From positions 1-61,660 of the forward strand of contig NZ_VKDC01000036.1 of the NCBI RefSeq assembly GCF_007097395.1: DNA of 61,660 nucleotides, read 5' to 3'. The notes beneath the pieces were generated by a model, which saw only the letters and a program-made list of their open reading frames with translations, ran no database searches and was not told the DNA's origin. The stretch comes from Fulvivirga sp. M361 (GTDB lineage: Bacteria; Bacteroidota; Bacteroidia; Cytophagales; Cyclobacteriaceae). This document shows, piece by piece, positions 26,861-55,901 of the stretch. The translations under genes and the position numbers were made by a program. Each line of letters begins with the position of its first letter. Within the stretch, counting starts at the first letter, position 1.

Positions 26861-26869
26861 AAATATTCA

Positions 26870-27640: not shown

Positions 27641-27704
27641 TACACCTCCAGGCTTCCAAAGGTTTTAGACAGTTTCTTTATTATTTAGGATTTGAATTTT
27701 ATTT

Positions 27705-38630: not shown

Positions 38631-38639
38631 GAGGTGAAG

Positions 38640-39620
38640 ATGAATGGCTTAGTGAGAAGGTTTATCTGGGTTGAAATTTTCGCCTTCATTTTTCTTCTTT
38701 TGGTATTAACAGAAATATCTAAAGGTATTTTAGGGTTTTTAGTAAGGTATTCTGATGACAGTCAAACGGGCAAAGTGAATCTCATAATGGAGCATAAAAT
38801 TGACCCTGAAATTGTTATTTTCGGTAGCTCTGTGGCTGAGGTAGGTTTTAATGCTAACCTGATTTCAGAAATAACGGATAACTTTGTTTATAATGCTGCC
38901 TTAGACGGAACAAGAATAGGCCAAAATAAGGGTCTTATAGATGAATTCAATACCTATTCAGAAAGGTGCCATACCGTGATTTTAGGCTTGTCATTTTTCT
39001 CGTTGTCTGAAGAGAGTCGTATGACGGAACCTTCACGTTTTTATGCTCATTTTAAAAATAAGAATGTGGAAAGAATGTTTTATGAATCGGATACTCATAA
39101 TTATATCAAACTCAAATATGTGCCATTTTATGCTTTTACTCAGTATACACATACCTACTATAAAAATGCAGGGATAGGGTTAAAGAACTTTTTGAAGGGG
39201 AAGGAGTTGGCCCCGGATGATCATAATGGATTCATACCGCACTATAATTCATGGTATGGTGAGAACATTGAAAGCAACGATTTTGGCTCAGTGGCTATTG
39301 ATTTTAGTGAAAAAACGTTAGGCCAACTTACAAATGTTATTCGGGAGCTTAACAATAAAGGGAGAAAAGTGATTATGGTCATATGTCCTATGTACATGAA
39401 TGGCCAAAAATACTACTCCAATTACCAGCAGCTTATTAATAAGGTTAAAGCCTTTGAGAAAGAGGGTGTTAAGGTGTACGATTTTTCGTCAATTCCTTTG
39501 AATACGGATAAAAACAATTTTTATAATAACGGACATTTGAACGTGACAGGAGCTAAGGAATTTAGTCGACTGATAGCTAATTCGTTGAAATCATCAAGAG
39601 AAACTAAAGAATTATTGTAA
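38640..39620 (+). CDS. AlgJ/AlgX-like SGNH-type partner of the MBOAT acyltransferase
   Basis: 326 residues from ATG 38640; GTG 38634 is a possible alternative, but AGAGGTG ahead of the ATG looks like a ribosome-binding site. One N-terminal membrane helix (IWVEIFAFIFLLLVL), then a periplasmic SGNH-like domain: IVIFGSSVAEVGFNANLI carries the GSS block with the nucleophile-position Ser, and FYNNGHLNVTGAKEFSRLIA carries the C-terminal His. It would receive acetyl from the MBOAT protein and place it on the glycan. Stop abuts the TTG of the next gene. Confidence 0.8.
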   Translation: MNGLVRRFIWVEIFAFIFLLLVLTEISKGILGFLVRYSDDSQTGKVNLIMEHKIDPEIVIFGSSVAEVGFNANLISEITDNFVYNAALDGTRIGQNKGLIDEFNTYSERCHTVILGLSFFSLSEESRMTEPSRFYAHFKNKNVERMFYESDTHNYIKLKYVPFYAFTQYTHTYYKNAGIGLKNFLKGKELAPDDHNGFIPHYNSWYGENIESNDFGSVAIDFSEKTLGQLTNVIRELNNKGRKVIMVICPMYMNGQKYYSNYQQLINKVKAFEKEGVKVYDFSSIPLNTDKNNFYNNGHLNVTGAKEFSRLIANSLKSSRETKELL

Positions 39621-40976
39621 TTGTATTCCAAAAAAGATTTATATAAATGTATTTTCATTGCTTCGCTTGTTGCGTTGTTAAGTATATTCTCATATGATTT
39701 ATGGTCTTCAATAGGCCTTGGATTTGTATCTTTTATTTTCGCCCTTTATATACTGAGGTTGGGTAAAACTATTCCATTACTCGAACTCATGGTCTTAATT
39801 GCAGCCATACAATGGATACTAGGACCTCATCAATCGTATAATTATAATTATCAGCATTTTAAATATTATATGTATGTCGGGCGCCTTGAATACATGCAGG
39901 TCATAGTACCGGGCACCATTGCCTTTGGAGCAGGTGTACTGTTTTTTTATCCCAAACTGGATTTTCAACGTGTGAATAAAGGGTTAATGGATCTTGTGGC
40001 AGCCAACCCAAACCTACCGATTGTCTTAATTGTAATTGGTATTTTGTCTTCATTCCTGATTAATCTACTTCCCCCTGCCTTTAGTTTTGTGATTTTTCTA
40101 ATGAGCAACTTTAGATTTGTTGGGGCTGCTTTGTGGCTATTCAAAGCGACCAGGGTGAACACTTTGATAAGCAGAATTGCTATAATAGGCTTGATACTAC
40201 TTTCATCCGTACAGGCAGGAATGTTTCACGAATTATTATTATGGTCAGCCTTGCTGTTGAGTTTTGTCGTATTGAGGTTCCAGTTAGGGATTTATTGGAG
40301 ACTTGTATTAGTGTTGTTTGGGTTTTCTTTGGCCTTTTTGATACAAAGCGTTAAAGCTGAGTACCGGGACATTATATATAGTGGTTTAGAATCACGTACT
40401 TCTACTACAGAAGTGTTTGCCGACCTGGTGGAGGACCGATTAAAAAATTTAAATACACTTCTATCGAATGAGGCATTTCTTGCAGAGATGAATGTTCGGC
40501 TCAATCAGGGCTGGATTATAAGTGCGATAATGAAAAATGTTCCCAACAATCAACCTTATGCAGAAGGGGAAACTATAGTTGAGGCAGTTAAGGCCTCTTT
40601 CTTACCTCGATTCCTTGCTCCGGGGAAGAAAATTGCCGGAGGCAGGGAAAATTTTGAAATTTTTACAGGACTCAAATTAAATAAAAATGCCTCAATGGGA
40701 ATAAGCATCATTGGTGAGGCGTATGCAAATTTTGGAAGAGAAGGGTCGTGGGTTTTTATGTTCTTTTGGGGGGCATTCATGGCTTGGGGACTTGGAAGAT
40801 TAGTGAAAAGCGGAGAAAAACAAGTAATAATTTTTGTATTTATTCCCTTAATTTTTCTTCAGGTGATAAAAGCAGAAACAGAGCTCTATGTTGTGCTTAA
40901 TCATTTTGTTAAAAGTACAATTCTTGTAGTTGTATTTCTTTGGGGTGGGAGAAAAATCTTGAATTGGAAAGTATAA
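39621..40976 (+). CDS. Polytopic membrane protein, Wzy-like polymerase candidate
   Basis: 451 residues from TTG 39621, directly after the previous stop. About ten to eleven membrane helices and a large loop (about residues 255-360, from EYRDIIYSGLESRT to FEIFTGLKLNKNASMG) ending in ISIIGEAYANFGREGSWVFMFFWG. The pattern EAYANFG before late helices resembles oligosaccharide polymerases (Wzy/O-antigen ligase type). I recall an annotated 'exosortase-associated Wzy-like' group in Bacteroidota; membership is unverified. Would polymerise repeat units in the periplasm. Confidence 0.7.
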   Translation: MYSKKDLYKCIFIASLVALLSIFSYDLWSSIGLGFVSFIFALYILRLGKTIPLLELMVLIAAIQWILGPHQSYNYNYQHFKYYMYVGRLEYMQVIVPGTIAFGAGVLFFYPKLDFQRVNKGLMDLVAANPNLPIVLIVIGILSSFLINLLPPAFSFVIFLMSNFRFVGAALWLFKATRVNTLISRIAIIGLILLSSVQAGMFHELLLWSALLLSFVVLRFQLGIYWRLVLVLFGFSLAFLIQSVKAEYRDIIYSGLESRTSTTEVFADLVEDRLKNLNTLLSNEAFLAEMNVRLNQGWIISAIMKNVPNNQPYAEGETIVEAVKASFLPRFLAPGKKIAGGRENFEIFTGLKLNKNASMGISIIGEAYANFGREGSWVFMFFWGAFMAWGLGRLVKSGEKQVIIFVFIPLIFLQVIKAETELYVVLNHFVKSTILVVVFLWGGRKILNWKV

Positions 40977-41016
40977 TTCCGGTATTTCTAAAGTGCTGTG
41001 AATTAATGGTATATAG

Positions 41017-42033
41017 ATGAAAATAACCTACTTTTTCAGGAGGCCAAGATCAGGGTTCAATAGTATAGAAGAACTGTTTTCCGGTATTATTCAGGGGATC
41101 AATAAGGTAAGGGAAACCGACATAATCAAAATTCCGCTGATTGGAGCTAGTCCGTTGAGAGTAATCTACAATATTTTTTTTGCCGTTAGAAATAAAGGTG
41201 AATTAAACCATATTACAGGTGATGCTCATTATCTGGCAATAGGATTAGGCAAGAATACGGTTTTGACCATCCATGATGTTTATTCGGCAATAAGAGGCAA
41301 TATCTTTAAGAAGGTATACATTAAACTTTTTTGGTTTATATGGCCAGCACGGTGTGTCGGCTCAATAACCACCATATCGGAGTTTAGTAAGCAGGAATTG
41401 ATTAAAACAATACCGTTTGCTGCTGACAAGATTAAAGTAGTGCATAATCCTTATCGGTATGACTTACTTAAGTACGAAAAAAAAAGTGCTGATACCTCAT
41501 TAGGAGTTGAACCCGTGAAGATTATGCTGGTGGGCACCAAGCCTAATAAAAATTTAGAAAGGACCATACGTGCATTGCAAAACGCCAGGGTGGAGCTATG
41601 TATTTTAGGAAAACTCACTCCCGCACAAATACAATTATTACAAAGTACATCCACCCAGTATGTAAACCGATATAATTTATCTTATGAAGATGTGATACGG
41701 TGGTATCTTCAATGTGATTTATTGTCGTTTATGAGTACCTACGAAGGTTTTGGAATGCCAATAGTTGAGGCACAAGTACTAGGTTTGCCAGTGGTAACCT
41801 CTAACCTTGGCGCTATGAGAGAAGTAGCAAAAGACGGTGCATGCCTGGTGGACCCTTACGATGAGCTGGATATGCGCAAGGGCATTGAAAAAGTCATTTC
41901 CCATAAAGAATATAGAAAAGAACTTATTCAAAAAGGCATCCAAAATGCGAATCGATTTGACCCTCATAAGATTACAAATCAATATATGTCCGTATATGAT
42001 GAAATGGGTGAAAGATTCAATTTGTTGAGTTAG
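41017..42033 (+). CDS. GT4-family glycosyltransferase
   Basis: 338 residues from ATG 41017. NKVRETDIIKIPL, GLGKNTVLTIHDVYS and TISEFSKQELIKTIP in the first domain; KIMLVGTKPNKNLERTIRAL and STYEGFGMPIVEAQVLGLPVVTSNLGAMREV in the second, with the EX7E-like donor motif. Likely a mannosyl- or glucosyl-type transferase, though donor prediction from sequence alone is unsafe. Confidence 0.9.
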   Translation: MKITYFFRRPRSGFNSIEELFSGIIQGINKVRETDIIKIPLIGASPLRVIYNIFFAVRNKGELNHITGDAHYLAIGLGKNTVLTIHDVYSAIRGNIFKKVYIKLFWFIWPARCVGSITTISEFSKQELIKTIPFAADKIKVVHNPYRYDLLKYEKKSADTSLGVEPVKIMLVGTKPNKNLERTIRALQNARVELCILGKLTPAQIQLLQSTSTQYVNRYNLSYEDVIRWYLQCDLLSFMSTYEGFGMPIVEAQVLGLPVVTSNLGAMREVAKDGACLVDPYDELDMRKGIEKVISHKEYRKELIQKGIQNANRFDPHKITNQYMSVYDEMGERFNLLS

Positions 42034-42062
42034 GTGGATGATTTCGATTTAAATTTTTTCTC

Positions 42063-43208
42063 ATTAAGCATTTAACAAAAACTACGGTCCTTATATTTTA
42101 TGATTATTTCGATCCGGCATACAAGGCAGGTGGGCCGATTCGATCATTGGTGAATCTTGTGAATTTCCTGGAAGACGACATTGACTTTTATATCATTACC
42201 AGTAATGTAGATCATGATGGTACTTGTTTATCAGTTAAGAAAAACATTTGGGTGGAATACGGTAGAAAGTCTAAGGTAGCTTATCTTGATAAAAGGCATC
42301 AAACCAAGTCTTATGTCAGTCACCTCATTGTTGGGAAGTCGATTGATGTGGTATACATTAATGGTGTTTTTTCCTTATTCAGTACAATAATCCCCCTTAG
42401 ATTGCCGGGCACGCACAAAGTTATAATTGCACCGAGAGGCATGTTACAATCCGCATCTTTATCACTCAAAGCAACAAAAAAGAAAATATATTTATCAGGG
42501 CTAAGGGCATTTTTTTTATCTGGTGAAATTTGTTGGCATTTAACTACAAGCCAGGAAAAGGAAGACTTCCTTAAGCGATTTAACCATTACAATAAAAATG
42601 TCCGATTAATTGGAAACATTCCTTCTTTAGAAAGTAATCCATCTAAAAAATGCAAGTGTGAAAATGACGTTTACATTTTAGGAAGCATTGCTTTGATAAG
42701 CCCCATGAAAAACATTGACCTTATACTTCGGGCATTAAAGCATATTAAAAAGCCCATAAAATATATTATTTATGGCCCAATCAAGGATAAATTGTATTGG
42801 GAAGAATGTCAGAAAGTGGTAAAGGAACTTCCGGATAATATTGAGGTTATGTACAATGGGGCCATTGATCCGGCTTTTGCAATTGATACGATGAAAGAGT
42901 TTGACTTTTACATTCAACCAAGCAAGAGTGAGAATTTTGGCCACTCGATATTTGAAGCTATGCGTACCGGCTTACCTGTGATCATAAGTGATCAAACACC
43001 CTGGAGAAATTTAAGAACCAAAAAAGCCGGTTGGGATATTGATACGTCTGATCTAATGAACCTGGTTGAAGCCATCAACGAAGCCATTAATTTATCTGAT
43101 AGCGAGTATCGAGAATATTGTCATGGTGCCATAAAGGTTACCGAACGTTATATAAAAGATTCAGATCTAAAGAATAAATACCTTAAACTGTTTTCGCCAA
43201 ATTCATGA
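42063..43208 (+). CDS. GT4-family glycosyltransferase with an apparent non-canonical start
   Basis: About 381 residues if initiated at ATT 42063. The reading frame is open from 42042, and TTVLIFYDYFDPAYKAGGPIRS (interrupted here for length only) before TTG 42147 looks like the conserved N-terminus of this family, but no ATG, GTG or TTG precedes it in frame. The TTG at 42147 would remove the KAGGPIRS glycine-rich loop. The second domain is normal: YILGSIALISPMKNIDLI, QPSKSENFGHSIFEAMRTGLPVIISDQTPW. Either ATT is used, or the sequence has an error, or the gene is truncated. Overlaps the next gene by 4 bp. Confidence 0.8.
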   Translation: MKHLTKTTVLIFYDYFDPAYKAGGPIRSLVNLVNFLEDDIDFYIITSNVDHDGTCLSVKKNIWVEYGRKSKVAYLDKRHQTKSYVSHLIVGKSIDVVYINGVFSLFSTIIPLRLPGTHKVIIAPRGMLQSASLSLKATKKKIYLSGLRAFFLSGEICWHLTTSQEKEDFLKRFNHYNKNVRLIGNIPSLESNPSKKCKCENDVYILGSIALISPMKNIDLILRALKHIKKPIKYIIYGPIKDKLYWEECQKVVKELPDNIEVMYNGAIDPAFAIDTMKEFDFYIQPSKSENFGHSIFEAMRTGLPVIISDQTPWRNLRTKKAGWDIDTSDLMNLVEAINEAINLSDSEYREYCHGAIKVTERYIKDSDLKNKYLKLFSPNS

Positions 43209-43756
43209 TCACGGAGTTAAGTAAATATGACAATAGTTGGTATAAGCCGGGAGGCACAGGTTTTAAACGATTCTTTTGGTTTTTCGTTAATTACCTTGTT
43301 TTTAAGAACGGACTATTGCCATTTTCCATTCTTAAAATAACTCTTTTGAAAGCCTTTGGAGCTAAAGTGGGTAAAGGTGTGAATATTAAGCCTTTTGTCA
43401 ATATAAAATATCCATGGTTGCTTGAGATAGGCAACTATGTATGGATAGGTGAGGGGGTATGGATTGATAATTTGACTAAGGTCAGTATTGGAAATAATGT
43501 ATGCCTGTCTCAGGGAGCTTTTTTGCTAACAGGAAATCATAATTACAAACGGTCGACCTTTGATTTGATAACAAAAGAAATTGTTATCAAAGAGGGTGTA
43601 TGGATCGGTGCTAAGGCTACGGTATGTCCGGGAGTGATCTGTGAGTCGCATTCAATACTATCTGTAGGTTCGGTGGCTACAAAAAAATTGGAACCTTATA
43701 TGGTTTATTCCGGTAACCCGGCTGTGAAGGTCAAAGAACGAATAATCGAGTCATGA
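43205..43756 (+). CDS. WcaF-like serine/hexapeptide acetyltransferase
   Basis: 183 residues, ATGA overlaps at both ends. Starts with a hydrophobic region, then VGKGVNIKPFVNIKYPWLLEIGNYVWIG, GNHNYKRSTFDLITK (catalytic His loop) and WIGAKATVCPGVICESHSILSVGSVATKKL; SGNPAVKVKERI closes the helix. This layout matches colanic-acid WcaF-type acetyltransferases. O-acetylation of a repeat-unit sugar is the likely role. Confidence 0.86.
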   Translation: MITELSKYDNSWYKPGGTGFKRFFWFFVNYLVFKNGLLPFSILKITLLKAFGAKVGKGVNIKPFVNIKYPWLLEIGNYVWIGEGVWIDNLTKVSIGNNVCLSQGAFLLTGNHNYKRSTFDLITKEIVIKEGVWIGAKATVCPGVICESHSILSVGSVATKKLEPYMVYSGNPAVKVKERIIES

Positions 43757-44499
43757 AGGTCTCTATAATCACGGTTTGTTATAATAGTGAACAAGTTCTT
43801 CAGGATGCTATTAATTCTGTTTCCGATCAAGATTATGATAACATTGAATATATTGTTATTGACGGTGGGTCCTCAGATAACACGGTGAGTATAATAGAAC
43901 GTAATTCCGATAAAATCAAAGTATGGATTAGCGAACCTGATGAAGGCATTTATGACGCTATGAATAAAGGTATTACACTGGCTACGGGTGATGTGGTAGG
44001 TATTCTGAACTCTGATGATGTATATACCCATAACGCAATAATATCTCAGGTGGTACAAGCCTTTACCTCTGATACCGATTCCGTTATCGGTGATATATTT
44101 TTTGTCTCACCAGGTAATTTGGAGCGTGTTGTTCGAACTTATTCTTCAAGTCACTGGTCACCGGTTAAGTTTGTATGGGGCTTTATGCCTCCTCACCCTT
44201 CATTTTTTGTAAGGAAAAAATATTATGATAAGCTTGGAGTATATAAGATCGATTATAAAATTGCTTCTGATTATGAACTGCTTATACGTTTTTTAGCCGT
44301 TAACAAGCTTAATTACAAGTATCTTCCGATAGAGATGGTTAAAATGCGTACAGGTGGCGCCAGTACTAAAAACTGGAAAAGTAACACTGTACTGAATAAA
44401 GAAATAATCAGGGCATGTCGTGAAAATGGATTAAAAACCAATTATTTAATGGTGTATTCGAAGTACTTCAAGAAAGTATTTGAACTGATTAACAGATAA
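43753..44499 (+). CDS. GT2-family glycosyltransferase (WcaA/WcaE-like)
   Basis: 248 residues. KVSIITVCYNSEQVLQDAI, YIVIDGGSSDNTVSIIE, EPDEGIYDAMNKGI, and the DXD-like LNSDD, typical of the short colanic-acid-type GT2 enzymes. The helical region PSFFVRKKYYDKLGVYKIDYKIASDYEL is also characteristic. Adds one residue to the lipid-linked glycan. Ends just before the exosortase gene. Confidence 0.92.
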   Translation: MKVSIITVCYNSEQVLQDAINSVSDQDYDNIEYIVIDGGSSDNTVSIIERNSDKIKVWISEPDEGIYDAMNKGITLATGDVVGILNSDDVYTHNAIISQVVQAFTSDTDSVIGDIFFVSPGNLERVVRTYSSSHWSPVKFVWGFMPPHPSFFVRKKYYDKLGVYKIDYKIASDYELLIRFLAVNKLNYKYLPIEMVKMRTGGASTKNWKSNTVLNKEIIRACRENGLKTNYLMVYSKYFKKVFELINR

Positions 44500-44505
44500 A
44501 ATTTG

Positions 44506-45075
44506 ATGTATAAAACCAGGCTTCATTTGGCAACCTATAAGACACAAATAGTATTCTTGGTTAAACTGATCACAATCTATTTAGCGCTATACTTTATTGT
44601 AAAAATATTTATTGGGGTGACGTCTGAAGGCGGAGCACTTTATTCACCTTGGCTGGACATTCATTTTGATGTTATATCCGGTTTTCGAAATATACTTTTA
44701 GGCTTTTCCGAGTATCTACTTAATACCTTGGGCTATGATCCTCAGCGTACTGAATTCACGCTCAATATTGATAATAGCCCTGGTATACGTTTGGTGTATG
44801 CTTGTATGGGTTTTGAATTAATTTGTGGCTATACAGCATTAATATTAGCTTATCCATTTTATGGAAAACGTACGGTTATTTATCTGCTATCAGGAATAGT
44901 TTTAATTGAATTATTGAATATCATAAGGATATGTGGTTTGACCATCTTGTTTTCCCACGGCCATATGTCATGGTTTGATACCGTTGACCACCATGATATT
45001 TTTAATTTTACCGTTGTTATAAGCTTGATTATAGTTTATATCACTTATTTGAAAGGGATCAAATCAGCAGAATGA
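44506..45075 (+). CDS. Exosortase/archaeosortase-family transpeptidase
   Basis: 189 residues from ATG 44506 (a TTG precedes it directly). Five to six membrane helices. The active-site residues of exosortases occur in the right order and context: C100 in LVYACMGFELICGY, R141 in ELLNIIRICGL, and H162/H163 in VDHHDIFNF. Exosortases recognise a C-terminal tripartite signal (short motif, membrane helix, basic tail) and are found in exopolysaccharide loci. A fitting 60-residue candidate substrate is encoded at 52221 in this locus. The subfamily cannot be fixed by eye; an XrtY-type enzyme is possible. Overlaps the epimerase gene by 4 bp. Confidence 0.87.
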   Translation: MYKTRLHLATYKTQIVFLVKLITIYLALYFIVKIFIGVTSEGGALYSPWLDIHFDVISGFRNILLGFSEYLLNTLGYDPQRTEFTLNIDNSPGIRLVYACMGFELICGYTALILAYPFYGKRTVIYLLSGIVLIELLNIIRICGLTILFSHGHMSWFDTVDHHDIFNFTVVISLIIVYITYLKGIKSAE

Positions 45076-46040
45076 ATATCTTGATCACAGGTATTACAGG
45101 CTTTATTGGTAGTAATCTTTATCACTATTTAAAGACAAAAACTCACGATGAGCATGAAATTAACTTCTACGCACTTACAAGGGATAGAGATAAGGTAGAA
45201 GGACAATTCAGAGATAATAACATACACATATTTACTAAAGTTGACAGCGCATTAATAGACCAATATAAAATAGAGGTCATAATTCATCTTGCAGGCATTG
45301 CACATGATCTTTCAGGAATTTATAAGGATAACGATTATGAACGGGTGAATTATGGTCTTAGCAAACATCTGTATGATGAGTTTATTGCGTCCGACACTGC
45401 AAGGAAGTTTATATATCTGAGTTCTGTAAAAGCGTTGGCAGACAGAGCCATGCAGGTGTTAACAGAAGAGCAAATGGCAGACCCCAAAACAGCCTATGGG
45501 AAGTCAAAACTTAAAGCAGAAAACTATATTTCCAGTATAAAGACTGATGGTAAAAAGACGTATGTTCTGCGTCCATCAATGGTATATGGTCCAGGTAATA
45601 AGGGGAATCTTAACCTGTTATATAATTTAATTAAAAAAGGGTACCCTTATCCATTAGGTGCATTTTATAATAAAAGGAGCTTTCTGTCTGTTAATAACTT
45701 GAACTTTGTTATGTCTCAAATCATAGCAAAAGAAATTCCGGAAGGTGACTACAATTGTGCGGATGGATCTGATATTTCGACCATCGAATTGGTGAAATTA
45801 ATTGGTATGACCATTAACAAACCGGCGCGAATTTTAAAGATCAATAAAAAAATGATCTTACAAATTTCCAAAATCGGAACATTGTTGAGATTGCCACTCA
45901 ACGAAAACACCTTGAAGAAGCTTGTCGAAAATTATCAAGTTTCGACAGATAAATTACTGAATGTACTGGGAATAGAAGGAATGCCTTACAATACATTAGC
46001 AGAATTTAGAGCAACGATAAAGAGTTTTGAAGACAGCTGA
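45072..46040 (+). CDS. NAD-dependent nucleotide-sugar epimerase/reductase (WbpV-like extended SDR)
   Basis: 322 residues. N-terminal NILITGITGFIGSNLYHYL binds NAD(P); LIHLAGIAHD-type segment, SSVKALA and the catalytic YGKSK follow. In loci that also contain a WbpL-like transferase (next gene) and a WbpM-like dehydratase (52408), such enzymes reduce UDP-4-keto-6-deoxy-GlcNAc to UDP-QuiNAc or FucNAc. That role is inferred from this trio; a plain UDP-sugar 4-epimerase is the alternative. Confidence 0.83.
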   Translation: MNILITGITGFIGSNLYHYLKTKTHDEHEINFYALTRDRDKVEGQFRDNNIHIFTKVDSALIDQYKIEVIIHLAGIAHDLSGIYKDNDYERVNYGLSKHLYDEFIASDTARKFIYLSSVKALADRAMQVLTEEQMADPKTAYGKSKLKAENYISSIKTDGKKTYVLRPSMVYGPGNKGNLNLLYNLIKKGYPYPLGAFYNKRSFLSVNNLNFVMSQIIAKEIPEGDYNCADGSDISTIELVKLIGMTINKPARILKINKKMILQISKIGTLLRLPLNENTLKKLVENYQVSTDKLLNVLGIEGMPYNTLAEFRATIKSFEDS

Positions 46041-47010
46041 GATCCTTGTTTATTTCTTCGCATTTGTTTTGCTGGAGTGGTCATATATCCTTGTGGCAAG
46101 AAGGCTAAGAATTATAGATAAACCCAATCATAGAACGATGCACTCCGGGCAAATAGTAAGAGGAGGCGGAGCGTTATTTGTGCTTGCTTACTGTGCTTAC
46201 TTTATATATTCTGATAACGATAATTATTTTTTCCTGATCGGACTACTACTACTGGCAGCAATAAGTTTCATTGATGATATAAGGAACCTGCCGGGTTCTT
46301 TTAGACTTGTTTTTCAAGTATTTTCAGTAGTTATGATGTTATATGATGTTGGAATATTTGAAATATGGAACTGGTTATTTATAATAAGCGCTATAATTAT
46401 TGTGACAGGAGTACTCAACGCATTTAATTTTATGGATGGAATAAATGGTATTACTGCGGGGTATAGTTGTTCATTATTACTTATTTTACTCATAATAAAT
46501 GAGCAATTAATTAAGTTTGCAGATACTAATGTTATAATATTTCTTCTTATTGGTACATTATCATTTAGCGTTTTTAACTTTAGAAAAAGAGCGTTGTGTT
46601 TTGCGGGAGATGTAGGAAGTATTACAATAGGTTTGATTATAGCTTACCTGATAATCAACCTGATCATAAGTTCAGGTAGCTTATTGTGGATCTTACTTCT
46701 TCTTATCTATGGGTTGGATGTAGTTATAACCATTGTGCAGCGAATTCGAAACAAGGAAAATATATTTGAACCTCATAGAAAACACTTATTCCAGGTGGCA
46801 ATTAATCGGTTGAATGTGTCGCATTTATTGGTTTCTACCATTTACAGTGTGGCACAATTTCTTATTGGTTTGATAGTTCTGCTGATTTATAGTTTTCAGA
46901 CGGAGCACCAGCTTTTATGGGCAATAGTGCTAATGATTTCTGGTGCCGCTTTTTATTTGATCATTAAAACCAAGATTACAGGTAGTGTTTGGTTATCAGA
47001 CTCATATTAA
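46027..47010 (+). CDS. WecA/WbpL-family polyprenyl-phosphate HexNAc-1-phosphate transferase
   Basis: 327 residues from TTG 46027, overlapping the epimerase by 14 bp. Polytopic, about ten helices. Cytoplasmic catalytic loops: the DKPNHRTMHSG motif, AISFIDDIRNLPG (the DD motif), NAFNFMDGINGITAG and the HRKHLFQ-type loop. Starts glycan assembly by joining a sugar-1-phosphate to undecaprenyl phosphate. A WbpV-like reductase precedes it, so QuiNAc or FucNAc is the likely first sugar. Confidence 0.92.
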   Translation: MKTAEILVYFFAFVLLEWSYILVARRLRIIDKPNHRTMHSGQIVRGGGALFVLAYCAYFIYSDNDNYFFLIGLLLLAAISFIDDIRNLPGSFRLVFQVFSVVMMLYDVGIFEIWNWLFIISAIIIVTGVLNAFNFMDGINGITAGYSCSLLLILLIINEQLIKFADTNVIIFLLIGTLSFSVFNFRKRALCFAGDVGSITIGLIIAYLIINLIISSGSLLWILLLLIYGLDVVITIVQRIRNKENIFEPHRKHLFQVAINRLNVSHLLVSTIYSVAQFLIGLIVLLIYSFQTEHQLLWAIVLMISGAAFYLIIKTKITGSVWLSDSY

Positions 47011-47572
47011 GAGGATTTTGGATGTTTTCCTGGCGTTAATACTTTCAATATTATTAATGCCGCTAACGGGGTTAATTGCCATGAGTATATTGGTGTTTGA
47101 TACCAGACCAGTGATGTTTAAACAATCGCGTCTGGGAAAAAACAACAAACCTTTTATACTCTATAAATTTCGGACTCTTGCAGTAAAAGGATATTCTGAT
47201 TTTGAATTTAGCCATGAGGATGTTACGAAAATGGGTCGGTTCTTGAGAGCTTCAGGTTTTGACGAGATACCCCAACTGTTGAATGTAATTAAAGGCGAAA
47301 TGTCTTTAGTCGGGCCAAGGCCTTTACCGGAAGAATATGTTGATTTATTAAATGGTTATTCAAAGACCAGGAGTCTGATAAAACCGGGAATTACCGGCCT
47401 GGTTCAAACGAAAGGAGGTAATGAGTTAGACTGGCCGGAAAGATTCAGGTTAGATGATGCATATGCTTCTGATATTTCATTCAAAAAAGATATAATCATA
47501 CTATTGAAAACTGTTTTGAGTCCTTTTAAAACAAAAATAACGCAAAGTAAAACGTTAACTCATTCCATTTGA
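46985..47572 (+). CDS. PglC-like bacterial sugar transferase (small phosphoglycosyltransferase)
   Basis: 195 residues from GTG 46985, overlapping the previous gene by 26 bp. A single re-entrant membrane segment (ILDVFLALILSILLMPL) then the monotopic transferase core: PVMFKQSRLGKNNKPFILYKFRTL, SGFDEIPQLLNVIKGEMSLVGPRPL with the DE catalytic dyad, and KPGITGLVQTKGGN. Length and lack of N-terminal domain match PglC, which uses UDP-diacetylbacillosamine. The next gene is a PglE-like aminotransferase. Second initiating enzyme in a row after the WecA/WbpL-like gene. Confidence 0.93.
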   Translation: MFGYQTHIKRILDVFLALILSILLMPLTGLIAMSILVFDTRPVMFKQSRLGKNNKPFILYKFRTLAVKGYSDFEFSHEDVTKMGRFLRASGFDEIPQLLNVIKGEMSLVGPRPLPEEYVDLLNGYSKTRSLIKPGITGLVQTKGGNELDWPERFRLDDAYASDISFKKDIIILLKTVLSPFKTKITQSKTLTHSI

Positions 47573-48720
47573 CCTCTATCTCAAAACCGATCTTACTGTC
47601 ACCTCCTCATTTTAGTGATGAGGAACTCAAATATGTAAAGCAGGCCTTCGGACAGGAATGGATTGCCGGGAGAGGGGAAAACCTGGATGAGCTGGAAGGG
47701 GCATTAAGCAATTTTCTTGGTATCGATCATGTTGTTGCATTAAATTCCGGTACTGCTGCGATACATCTTGCACTGGTTCTTCTTGGTATAAAACGCGGAG
47801 ACGTAGTGTTGTGCTCTACATTTACATTTGCTGCTTCGGCCAATCCCATTGTCTACCAGGGTGCGGAACCAGTTTTTATCGATAGTGAATCTGAGACATG
47901 GAACATGGATCCTGAACTGTTGGTTAAGGCCATAGATGAATTAATTAAAATTGGTAAAAAGCCCAAAGCCATCATTTTTGTTCATGTTTACGGAATGCCG
48001 GGTAAGATCGAAGAAGTAGCCAACATTTGTAACCACTTTCAAATTCCCTTAATCGAAGATGCTGCCGAGGCTTTGGGAGCTACCAGGAAAGGGAAGAAAG
48101 TCGGCACATTTGGGGATTTGGGCGTCTATTCCTTCAACGATAATAAAATAATTACTACTTCAGGGGGTGGGGCTTTAGTATCCAATAATGGGGATTGGAT
48201 TGAAAGGGCAAGGTTTTTAGCCTCACAATCCAGAGACCGTACCAATTATTATCAACACTCTGCCATTGGCTACAACTATGTTATGAGTAATATTGCTGCG
48301 AGTATTGGCAGGGGGCAGATGGAAGTACTTCAGGACAGAATAGAAAAGAGGCGGGAGATATTTGCATATTATAAGGAAAGGCTTGGTCAGATAGAAGGGG
48401 TGAAATTTCTGGAAGAACTACCCGGTGTTTATTGTAATCGATGGTTGACCACGCTACTTATTGATAGGGAAATTACTTCTGTTAGTGCAGAAACACTAAG
48501 ATTTGAATTGGAACAAGTAAGTATTGAATCCAGGCTTTTATGGAATCCTATGCATCGACAGCCCATATATCAGGAAAAACAGTATTTTGATAATGGGATC
48601 TCCGATCATTTGTTTTCTTCCGGCTTGTGTTTGCCTTCTGGGTCCAATATGGGGGCGGCAGATTTAGAGCGGGTAACTGATGCAGTATTGAAAGTACTTG
48701 ATCAGGTTACCAGGTCTTAG
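47569..48720 (+). CDS. PglE-like UDP-4-keto-sugar aminotransferase (DegT family)
   Basis: 383 residues from TTG 47569 (TTGA overlap). ILLSPPHFSDEELKYVKQAF and WIAGRGENLDELE are typical of PglE and related bacillosamine aminotransferases. PLP features: NSGTAAIHLAL, IEDAAEALGA and the Schiff-base Lys in SFNDNKIITTSGGGALV. It would aminate C4 of the 4-keto product of the dehydratase at 52408, giving UDP-QuiNAc4N for the PglC-like route. The PglD step may be done by the NeuD/PglD-like protein at 20749. Confidence 0.9.
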   Translation: MTSISKPILLSPPHFSDEELKYVKQAFGQEWIAGRGENLDELEGALSNFLGIDHVVALNSGTAAIHLALVLLGIKRGDVVLCSTFTFAASANPIVYQGAEPVFIDSESETWNMDPELLVKAIDELIKIGKKPKAIIFVHVYGMPGKIEEVANICNHFQIPLIEDAAEALGATRKGKKVGTFGDLGVYSFNDNKIITTSGGGALVSNNGDWIERARFLASQSRDRTNYYQHSAIGYNYVMSNIAASIGRGQMEVLQDRIEKRREIFAYYKERLGQIEGVKFLEELPGVYCNRWLTTLLIDREITSVSAETLRFELEQVSIESRLLWNPMHRQPIYQEKQYFDNGISDHLFSSGLCLPSGSNMGAADLERVTDAVLKVLDQVTRS

Positions 48721-48809
48721 TAATGAGGTATTTATGTTGTAAGATTCGGAGGATATACTGTATCTTATTATTAATTTCGTATTTTGTAATCAGAAGATTC
48801 CTAATGGGT

Positions 48810-51800
48810 ATGAAGAATATAATACTAGTTGTTGTTTTTTTTGCTGTTTTTACAAATTCATTTGCGCAAACGACGCTACTTTCTGAGAATTTTGATGTAG
48901 GTACCACCGTTCCAAACCCTCCATCAGGCTGGAGTAATACAGTGGACTTCGGTGAGCTATGGTCAACCACGTCAGGCGTTTTCAATTCTACACCTAATTG
49001 TGCTGACCTGACGATTCCTTCAAGTTCTGTGGCCATTAATTCAGCTCTGGAATCAACCAATTTCAGTACTTCAGGGTTTTCAAGCATCACCGTTCAATGG
49101 GAAGCCAGAGATGATTTGGGCGCGGAACCGTTGGTTCTGGAGTATGCTATAGGATCAAAATCAGGTTTTTCAAGTTCAGGTGTAACTTATACAGACAATG
49201 CTACCGCCGGATCTTTTGTGACACAATCGGCTACCTTACCCACCGCAGTCAATAATCAGTCCGTAGTTTACGTCAGGTGGGTTATATCAACGATTAATAA
49301 TGGGGCTAGCTATTTTATTGATGACGTTCTGATTCAAGGGACGGCTTCTGTTTCTTCAACCTTTTATTCCATTGCAGCTTCCAATACCAACTTGGATGAC
49401 CTGACAAGCTGGTCAAGCACTCAGGATGAACTTGGGGCCAATCCTCTTAATTTTACAGATGCAGGGGCTACATTCATTATTGATGATGCAGGAGGGACGT
49501 TTGATGCAAACTGGCCTGCGGCGGGTACAATTGAAAATGTTCGTGTAGAAAATGGAGCAGATTTGACAATTCCCTCAGGTTTTACACTTACCGGTACGGT
49601 TAATGTGAGCGACGGAGGGACGCTAATTTTAGCAAATACTACATTGCCCACTATTGGAACATTGGGTGAAACAAGTACTGTAGACTATGCACAAGGAGGT
49701 ACACAATCGGTAGATGTACAGAATTATGGTAATCTCACTATATCTAATTCAGGAACCTATGAGCTTGGTAATGCTACCAGGGTCAGAGGAACGCTTAATC
49801 TTGAAAGTGGAATATTAAGGCTTAGTATTTTCAATACGCATAACTTTATTGTGGAAGGAAATGTCATCCGAACTTCTGGTTCAATCAGAGGATCTAGCTC
49901 ATCAAATCTGACACTTACCGGAACGGCGAGTGTTGATAATCTCTTTTTTACTTCTGGTTTTGAAAATTTAAGACAATTATCAATTACTAAAAGTGGTGGT
50001 ACTGTAGACCTAACTTCAAACCTAACAATAGTAAATAACTTGTCTTTAACTCAGGTAACGCTTGACATTAATTCAAGTACCTTGTCACTTAGTAGTAATG
50101 TTAGTCTGTCGAGCAGTTCACTTACAAGCAATGCAAATGGCACTGTTCGGTTTGTGCAAGTCGCTGATGGACAAAGTGTTCCGGCTGGGACATACGGAAA
50201 TTTGCAGTTCAGTAATTTCAACAAAACATTACCTTCTTCCGGTACAATCAGTATCGCAGGTACTTTTACACCTAACGCTGCTACCGGTCATACCATTACA
50301 GGGTCGACGATTCTGTTTAACGGAACAACCCAGTTCATCCCGGATTTCACGTATAATAACCTGACCATTAATGCAGGCACTACCGCTACAGCTGCCAACT
50401 TTGATATTGAAGGTGATTTTACGAATAATGGAACATTTAATGCAGGCACCGGTCTGGTCACTTTCAGCGGTTCGTCCACTCAGGATATCAATGGAACTAC
50501 GCAATTCTATGATATGCAGTTGGACAACAACGTAAATAATGAAGGTACTACGACGCTTGAAAACATACTTACTCTAGGGAACGCGGTTACATTTGATGCA
50601 GACGGAGCTGCAGATACAGGGAGTTTTACGATAAGTTCAACAGGAGTATCGTCCACGGCCATGGTCAGCACTATTCCTGTTGGTTCTTCTGTTACAGGTA
50701 ATGTGACCACTGAGCGTTTCATACGGGCTTTTGCTATCGATAGATTTAGAAATATATCCATTCCATTAAATGGAATAACAGGAGCACAGTTGGACGAAGC
50801 TGATGACGTTCGCCTTAATTCAGTGAATGATGGACTGCCAAATGTTTTTAGTTACTCTGAAGCAATTACCGGTGATATAGATCAGGGCTGGCAGGCTGGT
50901 TTAACCAGTTCTACGCCTATGACACCTCATACAGGCTACTCGGTTTACAGGGATGTCAATGCCAATGTGACACTCGATGCTACAGGAACGCTTAATCAAG
51001 GGGATGTTGATTTTGGAGTGACCTATACCGAATCCTCACCGGGCAATCCGACAGGGGATGGATGGAACTTTCTTGGTAATCCTTATCCGGCTCCAATTGA
51101 TTATGACCTCCTGACCAGAAATGGTTCGGTAGGGGGTACAGTATCTGTATGGGATGCTGAGAATAATCAATATCTTTCCTATAATGCAGGTACTGCAACA
51201 GGGACACTTACAGATGGCATTATTGCTTCCGGCCAGGGGTTCTGGGTCCAGACTCAGGCAAGCTCACCATCTCTGACAGCGACAGAATCATCTAAAGTCT
51301 CATCGACGTCAACCAGTTTTTTTAGGACTAAAAGTACGGTTGAAAAGCTGGCTATAACCTTGACAGATACCATATCTTCTGACGTGGCATTTTTGGTATT
51401 AGATGAAAGAGCCACAGAGGGTTTTGATACTGAATACGATGGTCGAAAACTTGCTAATGGGATATTTAATTTATCTACTGTAATGGAGGGCCAGGACATG
51501 GTTATCAATACCATTCCCAGAAGTACTAGTTGCTCTATCACCACTGAATTAAATATTACTAATGTAAGCAGCGGTAATTTCGAGTTGGTTTTTGATAGCT
51601 TTAATAGTATTGGCGGATTAGATAGAATCACTTTGAAAGACAAATTTCTTGACAATGAAACCATCATAAACGACGCTCAAAACGTATATAATTTTGAAGT
51701 GACTGATGCCCCCGGCTCTCATGGAGAAAGGTTTTCGATTACCCTGGAATTTACCCCTGCTATCCCGGATATTCAGGTTAATAACAATGAGTTACAAATT

Positions 51801-52217
51801 TCAAGTACAGCGGAATCTATACAATGGTTCTTAAATGATGAGCCGATTGAAGGAGCAAATGAGCCTACCTTCCTGGCTGAAGAATCCGGAGTTTATAAAG
51901 TGTCATTGGCTAATGGCGACTGTCGTGTTTTTTCTGAAAACAGATCATTTGTAATTACTTCTCTTGAATCAAATATTGGGTCCGATTTACATATTTCTCC
52001 TAACCCATTTGAGAGTAATGTTATCTTGGGTATTGACTCTCCGGATGTTGATTTTGTGAGTGTTAACATTTATAATGCTAACGGTATTTTAGTTTTTTCA
52101 AAAAAGAATTTGGATCTTCGAGGAAATATAGACTTATCATCGCTTAAAAGTGGATTATATATTATGAATATAGACGCAGGAAATGAGATATTCGTAAGGA
52201 GGTTAATCAAGAAATAG
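48810..52217 (+). CDS. Large secreted protein with T9SS type A C-terminal sorting domain
   Basis: 1135 residues from ATG 48810 (ATG 48723 or 48804 are in frame, but 48810 puts the signal peptide MKNIILVVVFFAVFTNSFAQ at the N-terminus). An early region (TTLLSENFDVGTTVPNPPSG... SGFSSITVQWEARDD) resembles a jelly-roll domain. The middle is Ser/Thr/Asn/Gly-rich beta-repeat sequence with recurring LTGTASVDN and FNGTTQFIPDFTYNNLTIN-like strands, possibly a beta-helix. The end (HISPNPFESNVIL, VSVNIYNANGILVFSKK, LKSGLYIMNI, VRRLIKK) is a Por secretion-system tail. Probably surface-exposed. Embedded in the polysaccharide locus, 3 bp before the small exosortase-substrate candidate. Confidence 0.85.
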   Translation: MKNIILVVVFFAVFTNSFAQTTLLSENFDVGTTVPNPPSGWSNTVDFGELWSTTSGVFNSTPNCADLTIPSSSVAINSALESTNFSTSGFSSITVQWEARDDLGAEPLVLEYAIGSKSGFSSSGVTYTDNATAGSFVTQSATLPTAVNNQSVVYVRWVISTINNGASYFIDDVLIQGTASVSSTFYSIAASNTNLDDLTSWSSTQDELGANPLNFTDAGATFIIDDAGGTFDANWPAAGTIENVRVENGADLTIPSGFTLTGTVNVSDGGTLILANTTLPTIGTLGETSTVDYAQGGTQSVDVQNYGNLTISNSGTYELGNATRVRGTLNLESGILRLSIFNTHNFIVEGNVIRTSGSIRGSSSSNLTLTGTASVDNLFFTSGFENLRQLSITKSGGTVDLTSNLTIVNNLSLTQVTLDINSSTLSLSSNVSLSSSSLTSNANGTVRFVQVADGQSVPAGTYGNLQFSNFNKTLPSSGTISIAGTFTPNAATGHTITGSTILFNGTTQFIPDFTYNNLTINAGTTATAANFDIEGDFTNNGTFNAGTGLVTFSGSSTQDINGTTQFYDMQLDNNVNNEGTTTLENILTLGNAVTFDADGAADTGSFTISSTGVSSTAMVSTIPVGSSVTGNVTTERFIRAFAIDRFRNISIPLNGITGAQLDEADDVRLNSVNDGLPNVFSYSEAITGDIDQGWQAGLTSSTPMTPHTGYSVYRDVNANVTLDATGTLNQGDVDFGVTYTESSPGNPTGDGWNFLGNPYPAPIDYDLLTRNGSVGGTVSVWDAENNQYLSYNAGTATGTLTDGIIASGQGFWVQTQASSPSLTATESSKVSSTSTSFFRTKSTVEKLAITLTDTISSDVAFLVLDERATEGFDTEYDGRKLANGIFNLSTVMEGQDMVINTIPRSTSCSITTELNITNVSSGNFELVFDSFNSIGGLDRITLKDKFLDNETIINDAQNVYNFEVTDAPGSHGERFSITLEFTPAIPDIQVNNNELQISSTAESIQWFLNDEPIEGANEPTFLAEESGVYKVSLANGDCRVFSENRSFVITSLESNIGSDLHISPNPFESNVILGIDSPDVDFVSVNIYNANGILVFSKKNLDLRGNIDLSSLKSGLYIMNIDAGNEIFVRRLIKK

Positions 52218-52220
52218 CTA

Positions 52221-52403
52221 ATGAAGCAAAGATATATTTTTGTAATAATACTTATTTTCATTACCACTTCTTACGTATTTAGCCAACCCGGGGGAGGTGG
52301 CCCTGGAGATAGGGATATACCATTTGGTGGGATTGAATATTTGATGATTTTTGGAGGTGGATTAGGACTGGCTAAAATCATCAAAAACAAATCGAAAAAG
52401 TAG
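52221..52403 (+). CDS. 60-residue putative exosortase substrate (PEP-CTERM/PID-CTERM-like)
   Basis: From ATG 52221. Residues 1-21 are a signal peptide (KQRYIFVIILIFITTSYVFS), 22-32 a Gly/Pro linker (QPGGGGPGDRD), 33-37 the motif IPFGG, about 38-54 a single hydrophobic helix rich in Gly, and 55-60 a basic tail (KNKSKK). Nothing else is present, so the whole mature protein is a sorting signal plus a short linker. I recall a family of such mini-proteins in Bacteroidota called PID-CTERM and tied to an exosortase; the motif here (IPFGG) is a variant, and the match is unverified. An exosortase gene lies 7 kb upstream in the same operon. Confidence 0.75.
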   Translation: MKQRYIFVIILIFITTSYVFSQPGGGGPGDRDIPFGGIEYLMIFGGGLGLAKIIKNKSKK

Positions 52404-52407
52404 ATTT

Positions 52408-54324
52408 TTGTCCGTTACAAAACAGGTACTTAAACTTCGCATTTTACCGAGATGGGTCATTATTATCATTGACTCATTGATAATAATACTTTCCTCTTTA
52501 CTGGCTTACCTGTTACGGTTCAATTTTGATTGGGTCCAGGTTTTTCAATTTAATCTGAAAAACGGAATTCTAGCTAATTTACTATCGTTTCTTGTAGCCA
52601 CTTTTTTAACAAAAAGCTACTCAGGGATAGTCCGATATACAGGAATCCATGACGGCAAGAGATTACTCTCTACGCTTTTTTTAATGGGGGTCGTCGTGAC
52701 ATTCATGAACTTAGTTTTTTTCTATTTTTTTAGAAAAAACTTGATACCCTACTCCATTATTCTCATCACATTACTGGCCAGTTTTGTAGCACTATTTCAG
52801 TATCGTCTATTAATAAAAAATATCTTTTCTTACTACAGAAGTGCTAATAGTGGAAAAGTATCTGTGGCAATTTTTGGAGCAGGAGAACTAGGTATAGTCA
52901 CCCAATCGGTTCTTTTGGAAAGTAATGATGTTAATTATAAAATAGAAGCATTTTTCGAAGACGATAACAGGAAAGTAGGGAAAGTAATAAATGGGACACG
53001 AATTTACAGTGGGGGTGATGATTTTGCCAGGAAACTCAGAAGCCTGGGGGTTCAGGAGATGATAATTTCCACGCAAAATCTGGATACGGAAAGAACTAAC
53101 GAATTGGTAGATATATGTCTTAATCATGAAGTGCGTGTCAGATCGGTACCAAGTTTGGATCAATGGGTGAGGGGGGAGCTCAGTATTAAGCAAATAAGGG
53201 AAGTAAGAATAGACGACCTATTAGGTAGAGCATCAATTCGACTTAATAATGAAAAGGTAAAAGCCCAAATAACAGGTAAGTGCATTTGTGTAACAGGTGC
53301 CGCTGGGTCGATAGGCAGCGAATTGGTGAGACTGCTAATATACCATAAACCGGAACAGGTAGTACTGATAGACCAAAGTGAATCGGCGCTGTATGAGCTG
53401 CAGCGAGAAATATCAGATAAGGTAGTGATTAAGGCGTACGTGGCAGATATAACGGACGAGCTCAGAATAGATCAGATTTTTCAAGATGAACAACCTGAGA
53501 TCGTTTTTCATGCAGCGGCATACAAACATGTGCCCCTGATGGAGTTAAATACTGTGGAGGCTATTAAAACAAATATATTAGGGACAAAATGCCTTGCAGA
53601 CATTTCACTACGTAAAGGAGTGCGAAAATTCGTAATGGTTTCTACCGATAAAGCGGTTAATCCAACCAGTGTGATGGGATGTTCGAAGAGATTGGCTGAA
53701 ATGTACGTTCAGTCTTTGAATAACAGGGAACTGTCCCAACCGCAAAAATCATCAACAGTCTTCGTAACCACACGTTTTGGTAATGTTTTGGGATCAAATG
53801 GATCGGTTATTCCTGTCTTTAAAAAGCAAATAATGGAAGGTGGTCCCATTACTGTCACCCACCCTGAGATTACCCGTTTTTTTATGACCATACGTGAAGC
53901 TTGCCAACTTATATTGGAAGCAGGCGCTATGGCAAGAGGTGGGGAGATATTTATATTTGACATGGGGAAGTCAGTGAAAATAGTAGATTTAGCGAAGAAA
54001 ATGATTAAACTATCTGGCCTGGAGTTAGATAAAGATATTGAAATAGTTTTTACAGGTCTGAGAGAAGGAGAAAAACTATATGAAGAGCTTCTTGCGGATA
54101 AAGAAAATACTATGCCAACCCATCATGAAAAGATCATGATCGCCAAAACGCAACGGTTTGAATATGAGTTGGTGGATAAAGGGATGAAGTCTTTGAAGAG
54201 TGCTATTGACGAAGGGCACGATAGCTATACATCAGTTTCATTAATGAAAGCATTAGTTCCGGAGTATAAAAGTAATAGTTCTATTTATGAAGTGCTTGAC
54301 GGAATAGCACCACCCCAAATTTAG
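52408..54324 (+). CDS. UDP-GlcNAc 4,6-dehydratase, membrane-bound WbpM/PglF-like
   Basis: 638 residues from TTG 52408, 4 bp after the mini-protein. Four N-terminal membrane helices (about 17-130), a CoA-binding/NAD-sensor-like domain (VAIFGAGELGIVTQSVLL, about 150-235) and the catalytic SDR domain with TGAAGSIGSELVRLL (from residue 296), FHAAAYKHVPLME, MVSTDKAVNPTSVMGCSKR and TRFGNVLGSNGSV. Makes UDP-4-keto-6-deoxy-HexNAc, precursor for both the WbpV/WbpL-like and the PglE/PglC-like branches. Last gene of the polysaccharide locus. Confidence 0.93.
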   Translation: MSVTKQVLKLRILPRWVIIIIDSLIIILSSLLAYLLRFNFDWVQVFQFNLKNGILANLLSFLVATFLTKSYSGIVRYTGIHDGKRLLSTLFLMGVVVTFMNLVFFYFFRKNLIPYSIILITLLASFVALFQYRLLIKNIFSYYRSANSGKVSVAIFGAGELGIVTQSVLLESNDVNYKIEAFFEDDNRKVGKVINGTRIYSGGDDFARKLRSLGVQEMIISTQNLDTERTNELVDICLNHEVRVRSVPSLDQWVRGELSIKQIREVRIDDLLGRASIRLNNEKVKAQITGKCICVTGAAGSIGSELVRLLIYHKPEQVVLIDQSESALYELQREISDKVVIKAYVADITDELRIDQIFQDEQPEIVFHAAAYKHVPLMELNTVEAIKTNILGTKCLADISLRKGVRKFVMVSTDKAVNPTSVMGCSKRLAEMYVQSLNNRELSQPQKSSTVFVTTRFGNVLGSNGSVIPVFKKQIMEGGPITVTHPEITRFFMTIREACQLILEAGAMARGGEIFIFDMGKSVKIVDLAKKMIKLSGLELDKDIEIVFTGLREGEKLYEELLADKENTMPTHHEKIMIAKTQRFEYELVDKGMKSLKSAIDEGHDSYTSVSLMKALVPEYKSNSSIYEVLDGIAPPQI

Positions 54325-55549: not shown

Positions 55550-55901
55550 ATGTTATCCCAAATCAAAACCGCAAAAACTGTTTTTTTACTCACGCTTTTA
55601 ATGACCATTGCGGGTAATGAAGATGGGCCTTCAGTATCCTCGGAATCCCTACTTGATAGAGGTTGATCCCGTCGTTCGGGTGGTCAACAATTTCGTGATC
55701 AACCGAAGTCCGGGCAATATTTTCAAGGCAAAGGCGGGAGAGGGTAAACTGCTACTCACTTCTATCGACCTAGCCAATGATCTCGAAAACCGGGTCGAGG
55801 CTAAGCAGATGAAAAGCAGTTTGATGGCCTATATGAATGGGCCGGATTTCAACCCTGGCCAGAAGATTGATTTTTCAAAAATTAAAACCCTTGCCAAATG
55901 A
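55550..55901 (+). pseudogene. Remnant of a GH2-like gene: signal-peptide head joined out of frame to a C-terminal tail
   Basis: ATG 55550 opens a signal-peptide-like sequence (KTVFLLTLLMTIAG) that stops at 55666. A different frame from about 55650 to 55901 encodes EVDPVVRVVNNFVINRSPGN, KLLLTSIDLANDLENRVEAK and FSKIKTLAK, which aligns with the last 80 residues of the neighbouring GH2-type protein (VDPVVRVIDDFLTNRN, KLLFSSIDLGKDLENRIEAK, FENILTAIKN). So the head and tail of a paralogue remain, with the centre deleted. Its end overlaps the intact gene's start by 4 bp, so transcription and perhaps coupling are kept. Confidence 0.8.

Follow-up and report, generated by a model that had tools for sequence, protein, structure and literature searches.

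What does a 60-residue protein do in a polysaccharide locus that also encodes an exosortase? The question is raised by Fulvivirga sp. M361, from which we analysed a window of 61,660 nucleotides that is one contig (NZ_VKDC01000036.1) of an 8.13 Mb genome. The original prediction for this stretch held that an exosortase-like membrane protein processes a mini-protein encoded later in the same gapless run of genes, and that the product is joined to an acceptor, perhaps the lipid-linked glycan made here. It overlooked the type IX secretion system (T9SS) cargo gene just before the mini-protein gene, as well as the fact that the window exosortase is not of the XrtF type. With both taken into account, we consider the mini-protein reasonably likely to be a dedicated substrate for exosortase cleavage, to act with the T9SS cargo encoded just before it, and to be cut by XrtF in relatives and by an XrtY-like enzyme here. 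The features concerned are as follows.

44506..45075, + strand: XrtY-like exosortase, 189 amino acids (aa), from an ATG start; a TTG start at 44503 is also possible.
48723..52217, + strand: T9SS type A cargo, 1164 aa counted from the first ATG.
51993..52214, + strand: T9SS type A sorting tail (TIGR04183) of the cargo.
52221..52403, + strand: mini-protein, 60 aa, candidate exosortase substrate.
52221..52283, + strand: signal peptide M1-S21 of the mini-protein, with a predicted cut before Q22.
52284..52319, + strand: 12-residue linker Q22-I33 (QPGGGGPGDRDI) of the mini-protein.
52320..52337, + strand: putative sorting motif P34-F-G-G-I-E39.
52338..52400, + strand: hydrophobic helix Y40-A51 (with G45 and G49) and Lys-rich tail K52-K60.

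Is the mini-protein a real gene product with the plan of an exosortase substrate? The complete plan ascribed to the 60-aa open reading frame (ORF) at 52221-52403 is indeed present: a signal peptide, Q22, the linker QPGGGGPGDRD, I33-P34-F35-G36-G37-I38-E39, one helix and a Lys tail. Bacteroidota proteins tend to start with Gln after the signal peptide. A profile seeded from related loci matched 76 of 6620 ORFs of 45-130 aa from such loci and 0 of 6620 once their residues were shuffled, and on this basis we rejected a chance ORF. Over 60 codons, the mini-protein differs from its homologue in G529, a second Fulvivirga genome, at 20 first, 12 second and 36 third positions, a third-position bias that is expected of a constrained coding gene; the linker is near-identical between the two. 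Q22, P34, G37, G45 and G49 (window numbering) are invariant in all 23 aligned members. Among 59 unique motif members, E39 is found in 55 and both helix glycines in 59, with 10-22 residues (median 13) from the linker Gln to the Pro; because these 59 were picked with the pattern P-x-[TGSQWN]-G, invariance of the Pro and Gly is there by construction, and the 23 aligned members give the independent figure. We define a PxxGIE mini-protein family by the core P-[ILF]-x-G-[ILV]-E, helix glycines at Pro +11 and +15, and a position directly behind a T9SS cargo gene. The window mini-protein has all of these properties, and it is the only one in its genome, the next matches having E-values of 0.28 and 0.41.

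Could it simply be a PID-CTERM protein? Members of that family (NF046080) share the signal peptide, short low-complexity linker, Pro motif, spaced-Gly helix and basic tail, and in the sampled order they are often mini-proteins adjoining exosortases. They differ in their motif, P-I-D-G-G, where the window-type mini-proteins have P-[ILF]-x-G-[ILV]-E. All ten mini-proteins examined with the latter motif, the window's included, fall below the PID-CTERM cut-off of 26 bits; scanned singly, the nine others gave six scores of 12-23 bits and three no match, and five of the six sub-cut-off matches begin at model position 9 or 10, the remaining one at position 5. When ten aligned members were scanned singly, only one, which bears a true PIDGG, passed the cut-off, and at E<=1 the model matches 19 of the 23 aligned members. 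The window mini-protein, with PFGGIE, has no match at E<=1, and no protein of the window genome exceeds the cut-off. We rejected an ordinary PID-CTERM protein on these sub-cut-off or absent scores. Our literature search found no publication naming PID-CTERM, which we take to be linked to XrtX and XrtY, in agreement with our scans. In the proposed search of both proteins with hidden Markov models, the exosortase passes family models, and the mini-protein matches no PID-CTERM model and, at E<=1, no Pfam or NCBIfam model.

The exosortase call itself holds. By its sequence, the protein encoded at 44506-45075 belongs to the exosortase/archaeosortase superfamily, with 42.7 bits against Pfam Exosortase_EpsH (PF09721; cut-off 25.7) and 45.2 bits against TIGR04178 (cut-off 23), and a peptidase or transpeptidase activity is predicted. 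Aligned with 67 XrtF proteins, it shares C100, N138, R141 and H162 (ATG numbering) with every one of the 68 rows; of the catalytic residues first proposed, C100, R141 and H162 are therefore invariant and H163 is not. Its best subfamily model is XrtY (NF046083), as is also the case for the G529 exosortase (122.7 and 130.8 bits, respectively). The window protein lies under the curated cut-off of 160, which is passed by 0 of 291 genomes sampled in the order, and we call it XrtY-like only, on its best score and its clade. Its AlphaFold model is all-helical (mean pLDDT 78.7, pTM 0.73) and, compared with solved structures, gave 49 matches at E<=10 but none at E<=0.001, the best being 1.8; a profile search of solved chains returned one weak match (E 0.012, 46 positions) that we take as chance. 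A scan of genome contigs with the window exosortase as query found no relative. Because the window genome encodes a single exosortase (E<=0.01), the XrtY-like enzyme must be the one that processes the mini-protein if any exosortase does.

If the two proteins belong together, they should be found together in other genomes. We sampled 98 genomes of the family, with a mini-protein threshold of E<=0.005 that was set after viewing the match list, and found mini-proteins in 23, the window genome included; three of the 23 carry the PID or a near-PID type (G353, G328 and G307). Mini-proteins are present in 21 of 39 exosortase-bearing genomes versus 2 of 59 exosortase-free ones; put the other way, exosortases are present in 21 of 23 mini-bearing genomes versus 18 of 75 others (Fisher p 7e-9, which overstates independence because related genomes were counted). 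In 18 of the 21, the window genome among them, the exosortase lies upstream of the mini-protein on the same strand and contig, within 8 kb, and in the other three it is on another contig (G333, G353) or 29 kb away (G328). The two mini-proteins lacking an exosortase, in G334 and G323, lie on contigs of 8.9 and 3.0 kb. Within Fulvivirga, both genes occur together in 9 of 15 genomes and are both absent from 3; 2 have the mini-protein only (G518, G460) and 1 the exosortase only (G524). Taken alone, this table is not significant (p 0.077). The G518 contig has just 452 bases ahead of the mini-protein, and that of G524 stops within the cargo gene. Co-occurrence was the test by which the original prediction could have failed; it did not, and the pairing across genomes supports the mini-protein as the exosortase's likely substrate.

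Which exosortase do the relatives carry? Those of 18 mini-protein loci (the window genome's excluded) form, together with that of locus L056, one clade of 19 rows with 100/100 support. All four that were scanned score 124-136 bits against the XrtF model (TIGR04128; cut-off 90), and a 138-aa gene behind one of them, the one case scanned, passes TIGR04127, the XrtF-associated membrane protein. The pair represented by Fjoh_1448/1449 in Flavobacterium johnsoniae is present at the mini-protein's locus in relatives. We further scanned named genomes with the XrtF alignment and kept the best 80 of 97 relatives; 78 of these 80 loci have the TIGR04127 companion. Where at least 8 kb of downstream sequence was available, 48 of 54 loci hold a mini-protein, 47 of them 3.0-8.2 kb downstream of XrtF on the same strand and one (Fulvivirga marina, L208) 8.2 kb upstream; where less was available, 3 of 26 do. 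The GIE-like type accounts for 50 of the resulting 51 mini-proteins and the PID type for one. XrtF with its TIGR04127 companion is the mini-protein's usual partner in related loci.

The window departs from this rule in its enzyme. In the window genome and G529, an XrtY-like exosortase stands where relatives carry XrtF, while the mini-protein, the cargo and a CapD-type gene are retained; the two exosortases are 50% identical and the gene order is the same. A profile built from relatives found no TIGR04127 companion in the window or in the G529 locus (L162), the rest of the window genome not having been searched. We rejected the window exosortase as the family's XrtF, since it scores 49.3 bits against the cut-off of 90 and since forcing it and the G529 protein into a clade with 16 family XrtF proteins costs 85 log-likelihood units (p-AU 8e-55); a tree that unites the ten Fulvivirga exosortases is worse by 95 units (p-AU 3e-67), the groups in both cases having been picked after the first exosortase tree had been viewed. 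Nor do the eight Fulvivirga XrtF proteins form one clade, in that the L179 protein groups with that of G350 and that of G144 falls among Fulvivirga. The CapD proteins of eight Fulvivirga loci, the window and G529 included, do group as a single clade, moderately supported (92/81; present in 94% of bootstrap trees). Two further genomes, G340 and G396, have related exosortases near some of the same glycosyltransferases, the G340 proteins being 53% (GT4a), 44% (GT4b), 64% (LbH) and 59% (GT2) identical to those of the window. Gene content and similarity therefore suggest that the XrtY-like enzyme may have come together with neighbouring glycosyltransferase genes.

What, then, might the mini-protein serve? 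The cargo encoded at 48723-52217 scores 49.9 bits against TIGR04183 as a whole and 54.5 bits over its last 110 residues (cut-off 23), and it ends 3 bases before the mini-protein; judging from the signal peptide, ATG 48804 or 48810 is a likelier start than the first ATG. In a set of 78 mini-proteins from related loci, unique in their last 40 residues, 68 lie directly behind a gene on the same strand that encodes 500 aa or more, although many of the cargo-mini loci counted are orthologous. Sixty-six of these genes reach at least 700 aa, compared with 10.8% of 1623 background genes. By type, such a gene precedes 27 of 27 GIE, 40 of 50 PID and 1 of 1 other mini-proteins. It ends anywhere from 43 bases inside the mini-protein gene to 342 bases before it (median gap 12.5 bases; 35 bases or less in 54 of 68). 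A T9SS type A sorting domain (E<=0.01) is found in 66 of the 68, which places 66 of the 78 mini-proteins behind a T9SS cargo. As a held-out test, a tail profile made from half of the cargos matched 32 of the 34 remaining ones; in the background it matched 30 of 736 genes with 300 aa or more, and 21 of 110 with 700 aa or more. By the same profile, all 51 mini-proteins of the named XrtF loci, from genomes that are partly those of the 78-member set, lie behind a cargo.

The pairing also persists where the surroundings change. Genome G250 (loci L135 and L182-L191) has a single exosortase and 12 PID-CTERM mini-proteins, each preceded by a separate gene of 753-2727 aa, and in F. marina the cargo and mini-protein are found together in a new place, upstream of XrtF. 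From these 12 separate pairs and this joint move we take cargo plus mini-protein as a unit: judged by gene order, it looks like the constant element, with the exosortase and glycosyltransferases as exchangeable surroundings. As a side observation, genome G076 (L058, 5519-13910) has tandem copies of a large gene, identical mini-protein and exosortase.

We propose the following course of events. Signal peptidase would cut before Q22, leaving a 12-residue periplasmic arm rich in Gly, Pro and Asp on a single membrane helix. The exosortase, by way of C100, R141 and H162, would cut at or near P34-F-G-G-I-E, and would pass the short peptide on to an acceptor in the envelope; the likeliest candidate is a glycan, lipid-linked or surface-located, that the surrounding genes produce. 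The cargo would exit through the T9SS. The processed peptide, one per cargo, could hold it or position it on the surface of the cell or within the polysaccharide; pairing one to one points to a peptide that serves its cargo. The cutting enzyme would be XrtF in pair-bearing relatives and the XrtY-like replacement in the window genome. In a more specific version, which we regard as doubtful, the exosortase anchors the mature peptide of roughly 12 residues, through its C-terminus, to a glycan or lipid of the envelope. The cargo would be held by this peptide, or joined to it by the T9SS sortase, so that the peptide bridges a giant adhesin and the polysaccharide; XrtF and the XrtY-like enzyme would be exchangeable on the substrate. 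One report describes P. gingivalis T9SS cargo as joined to a linking sugar (PMC7468200).

Several alternatives deserve consideration. The processed mini-protein could instead be joined to a lipid-linked glycan and so anchor or prime the polymer as a peptide, in line with the original prediction, with the T9SS cargo a mere neighbour. Polysaccharide genes do surround the pair, CapD follows the mini-protein in most XrtF loci examined, and exosortases are linked to exopolysaccharide loci in the literature (PMC1569441). Yet mini-proteins follow large genes also in stretches of 8.0-17.2 kb in which 14 window queries find no polysaccharide gene, as for 12 of 12 in G250, and the cargo-mini pair moves as a unit, as in F. 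marina. Because the cargo is the mini-protein's most constant neighbour, a role with it is better supported than one in priming a polymer, and on this comparison of loci we prefer a partnership with that cargo and would call the primer idea unlikely. Another option is that the window mini-protein is a relic of a lost XrtF system and that the XrtY-like enzyme acts on something else or has no substrate at all. The change of exosortase type in this lineage would fit, as would three residues in which the window and G529 mini-proteins stand apart: Ile precedes the Pro, where 55 of 57 others have Val; residue 42 is Met, as in 1 of 57; and residue 51 is Ala or Thr, where 45 of 57 have Lys or Arg. Against decay speak the intact state of the gene since the split from G529, its third-position-biased change and near-identical linker, and as to another substrate, the window genome offers neither a PID-CTERM match over the cut-off nor a second mini-protein. 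We hold a relic to be rather improbable.

It is also conceivable, if very improbable, that the mini-protein stays uncut and works in cargo export as a small regulator or as an adaptor held in the membrane, its association with exosortases being indirect. The one-to-one pairing with cargo would suit this role, as would the pairs in stretches without a nearby exosortase (L112, L116, L123 and L130-L132). But four of those six genomes have an exosortase elsewhere, the co-occurrence with exosortases is strong, and the tripartite signal with its conserved motif resembles those of known exosortase and archaeosortase substrates.

Returning to the mini-protein as an exosortase substrate that acts with its cargo, a number of observations weigh against it. 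Ten of the 78 mini-proteins, all of the PID type, are not behind a gene of at least 500 aa; five of these have no same-strand gene of at least 150 aa within 600 bases and five have only a smaller gene. G460 has a mini-protein and no exosortase, with no contig end to explain the absence. Six of the 54 named loci lack a mini-protein: in one the stretch stops within the cargo gene, and in three Marivirga and two Chryseolinea loci there is none within 10 kb. For one of these, Marivirga sericea (L265; G333), a cargo-mini pair is found on another contig (L116). Outside the family, two other families (f74 and f42) were covered by their 12 XrtF loci of highest score, none of which has such a mini-protein within about 10 kb, and among eight further XrtF loci only one, L295, has a mini-protein, of the PID type, which leaves 19 of the 20 loci with none. 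The mini-protein therefore does not accompany XrtF everywhere, and we limit the claim to the family and its near relatives. As to the exchange of exosortases, G340, despite its related XrtY-like enzyme, has no cargo-mini pair between aminotransferase and CapD, and similar glycosyltransferases occur near XrtX-like exosortases in G314 and G328 (L126, L151) and so are not tied to XrtY alone. Finally, cleavage, the cut site, the acceptor and the contact between peptide and cargo are all inferred from sequence.

The genetic surroundings are those of a polysaccharide locus. The run described as gapless is confirmed: on the + strand from 43753 to 54324, neighbouring genes overlap or stand at most 6 bases apart, in the order glycosyltransferase family 2 (GT2), exosortase, NAD epimerase, WecA-type transferase, phosphoglycosyltransferase, aminotransferase, T9SS cargo, mini-protein and CapD/PglF-type dehydratase. 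The genes around the exosortase, cargo and mini-protein are these.

39621..44499, + strand: upstream genes for a 451-aa membrane protein, two glycosyltransferases, an LbH-type acyltransferase and GT2, the last four named by eye.
45072..46040, + strand: NAD-dependent epimerase/dehydratase.
46027..47010, + strand: glycosyltransferase family 4 (WecA/MraY type).
46985..47572, + strand: polyprenyl phosphoglycosyltransferase-type protein.
47569..48720, + strand: DegT/LegC-type aminotransferase.
52408..54324, + strand: CapD/PglF-type nucleotide-sugar dehydratase, directly 3' of the mini-protein, grouping with the CapD of Fulvivirga relatives.

The set at 39621..44499 is common to G529 and is found in part in G340 and G396. 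Its 451-aa membrane protein has no family match and may be Wzy-like, judging from length and place alone. Elsewhere in the window, an MBOAT acyltransferase gene followed by a weak, sub-cut-off AlgX/SGNH match (37191-39620) is a possible O-acylation pair for the polymer. At 26240-28904, within the polysaccharide locus, a glutamine amidotransferase and HisF-like pair precedes a 399-aa protein that has no Pfam match at E<=1e-5, a set that is perhaps for sugar amidation. A PorP/SprF family protein after a large repeat protein (1809-2795) marks another T9SS-related cluster at the window start. Beyond the CapD gene, a 97-aa ORF (55608-55901), compared by eye, repeats much of the C-terminus of the next gene, a glycoside hydrolase family 2 (55898-58711); the shared DPVVRV ... 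SIDL ... EAKQM run makes a partial duplication likely.

How does this system compare with what is known? PEP-CTERM, LPXTG, GlyGly-CTERM and PGF-CTERM signals usually reside on larger proteins. In the window system, by comparison, processing would leave about 12 residues in total, and a separate gene, that of the T9SS cargo, encodes the large partner. All share a tripartite C-terminal signal at which a membrane enzyme (XrtA or EpsH, sortase, rhombosortase and archaeosortase, respectively) cuts, as set out in part in PMC11980579. The XrtF system of F. johnsoniae differs in that the window enzyme is not XrtF and no companion gene was found in the window. In PMC10936215, the F. johnsoniae deletion mutants of xrtF, the companion gene, porU and porZ have an identical phenotype row, which we take as independent support for the course of events proposed above; deletions of the hypothetical protein Fjoh_0651 and the aminotransferase Fjoh_0334 fall in the same row. 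From this literature, Fjoh_0651, so small that a 434-bp fragment sufficed to complement it, is itself a possible XrtF target. Searches combining exosortase with T9SS, T9SS with CTERM, and XrtX, XrtY or exosortase F found no publication on the cargo-mini pairing, to judge by titles and selected passages, in a literature consisting mostly of non-subscription journals.

A 2025 paper states that the targets of XrtF are not yet known (PMC12188702). The mini-proteins described here would supply concrete candidate targets in one family for an enzyme that is needed for biofilm formation in F. johnsoniae. Tiny exosortase substrates would also gain a partner, the preceding T9SS cargo, such that their function becomes testable with one gene pair. 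The exchange of exosortases within the genus, with the substrate kept and the enzyme changed, would be an experiment of nature on which features the enzyme needs to recognise.

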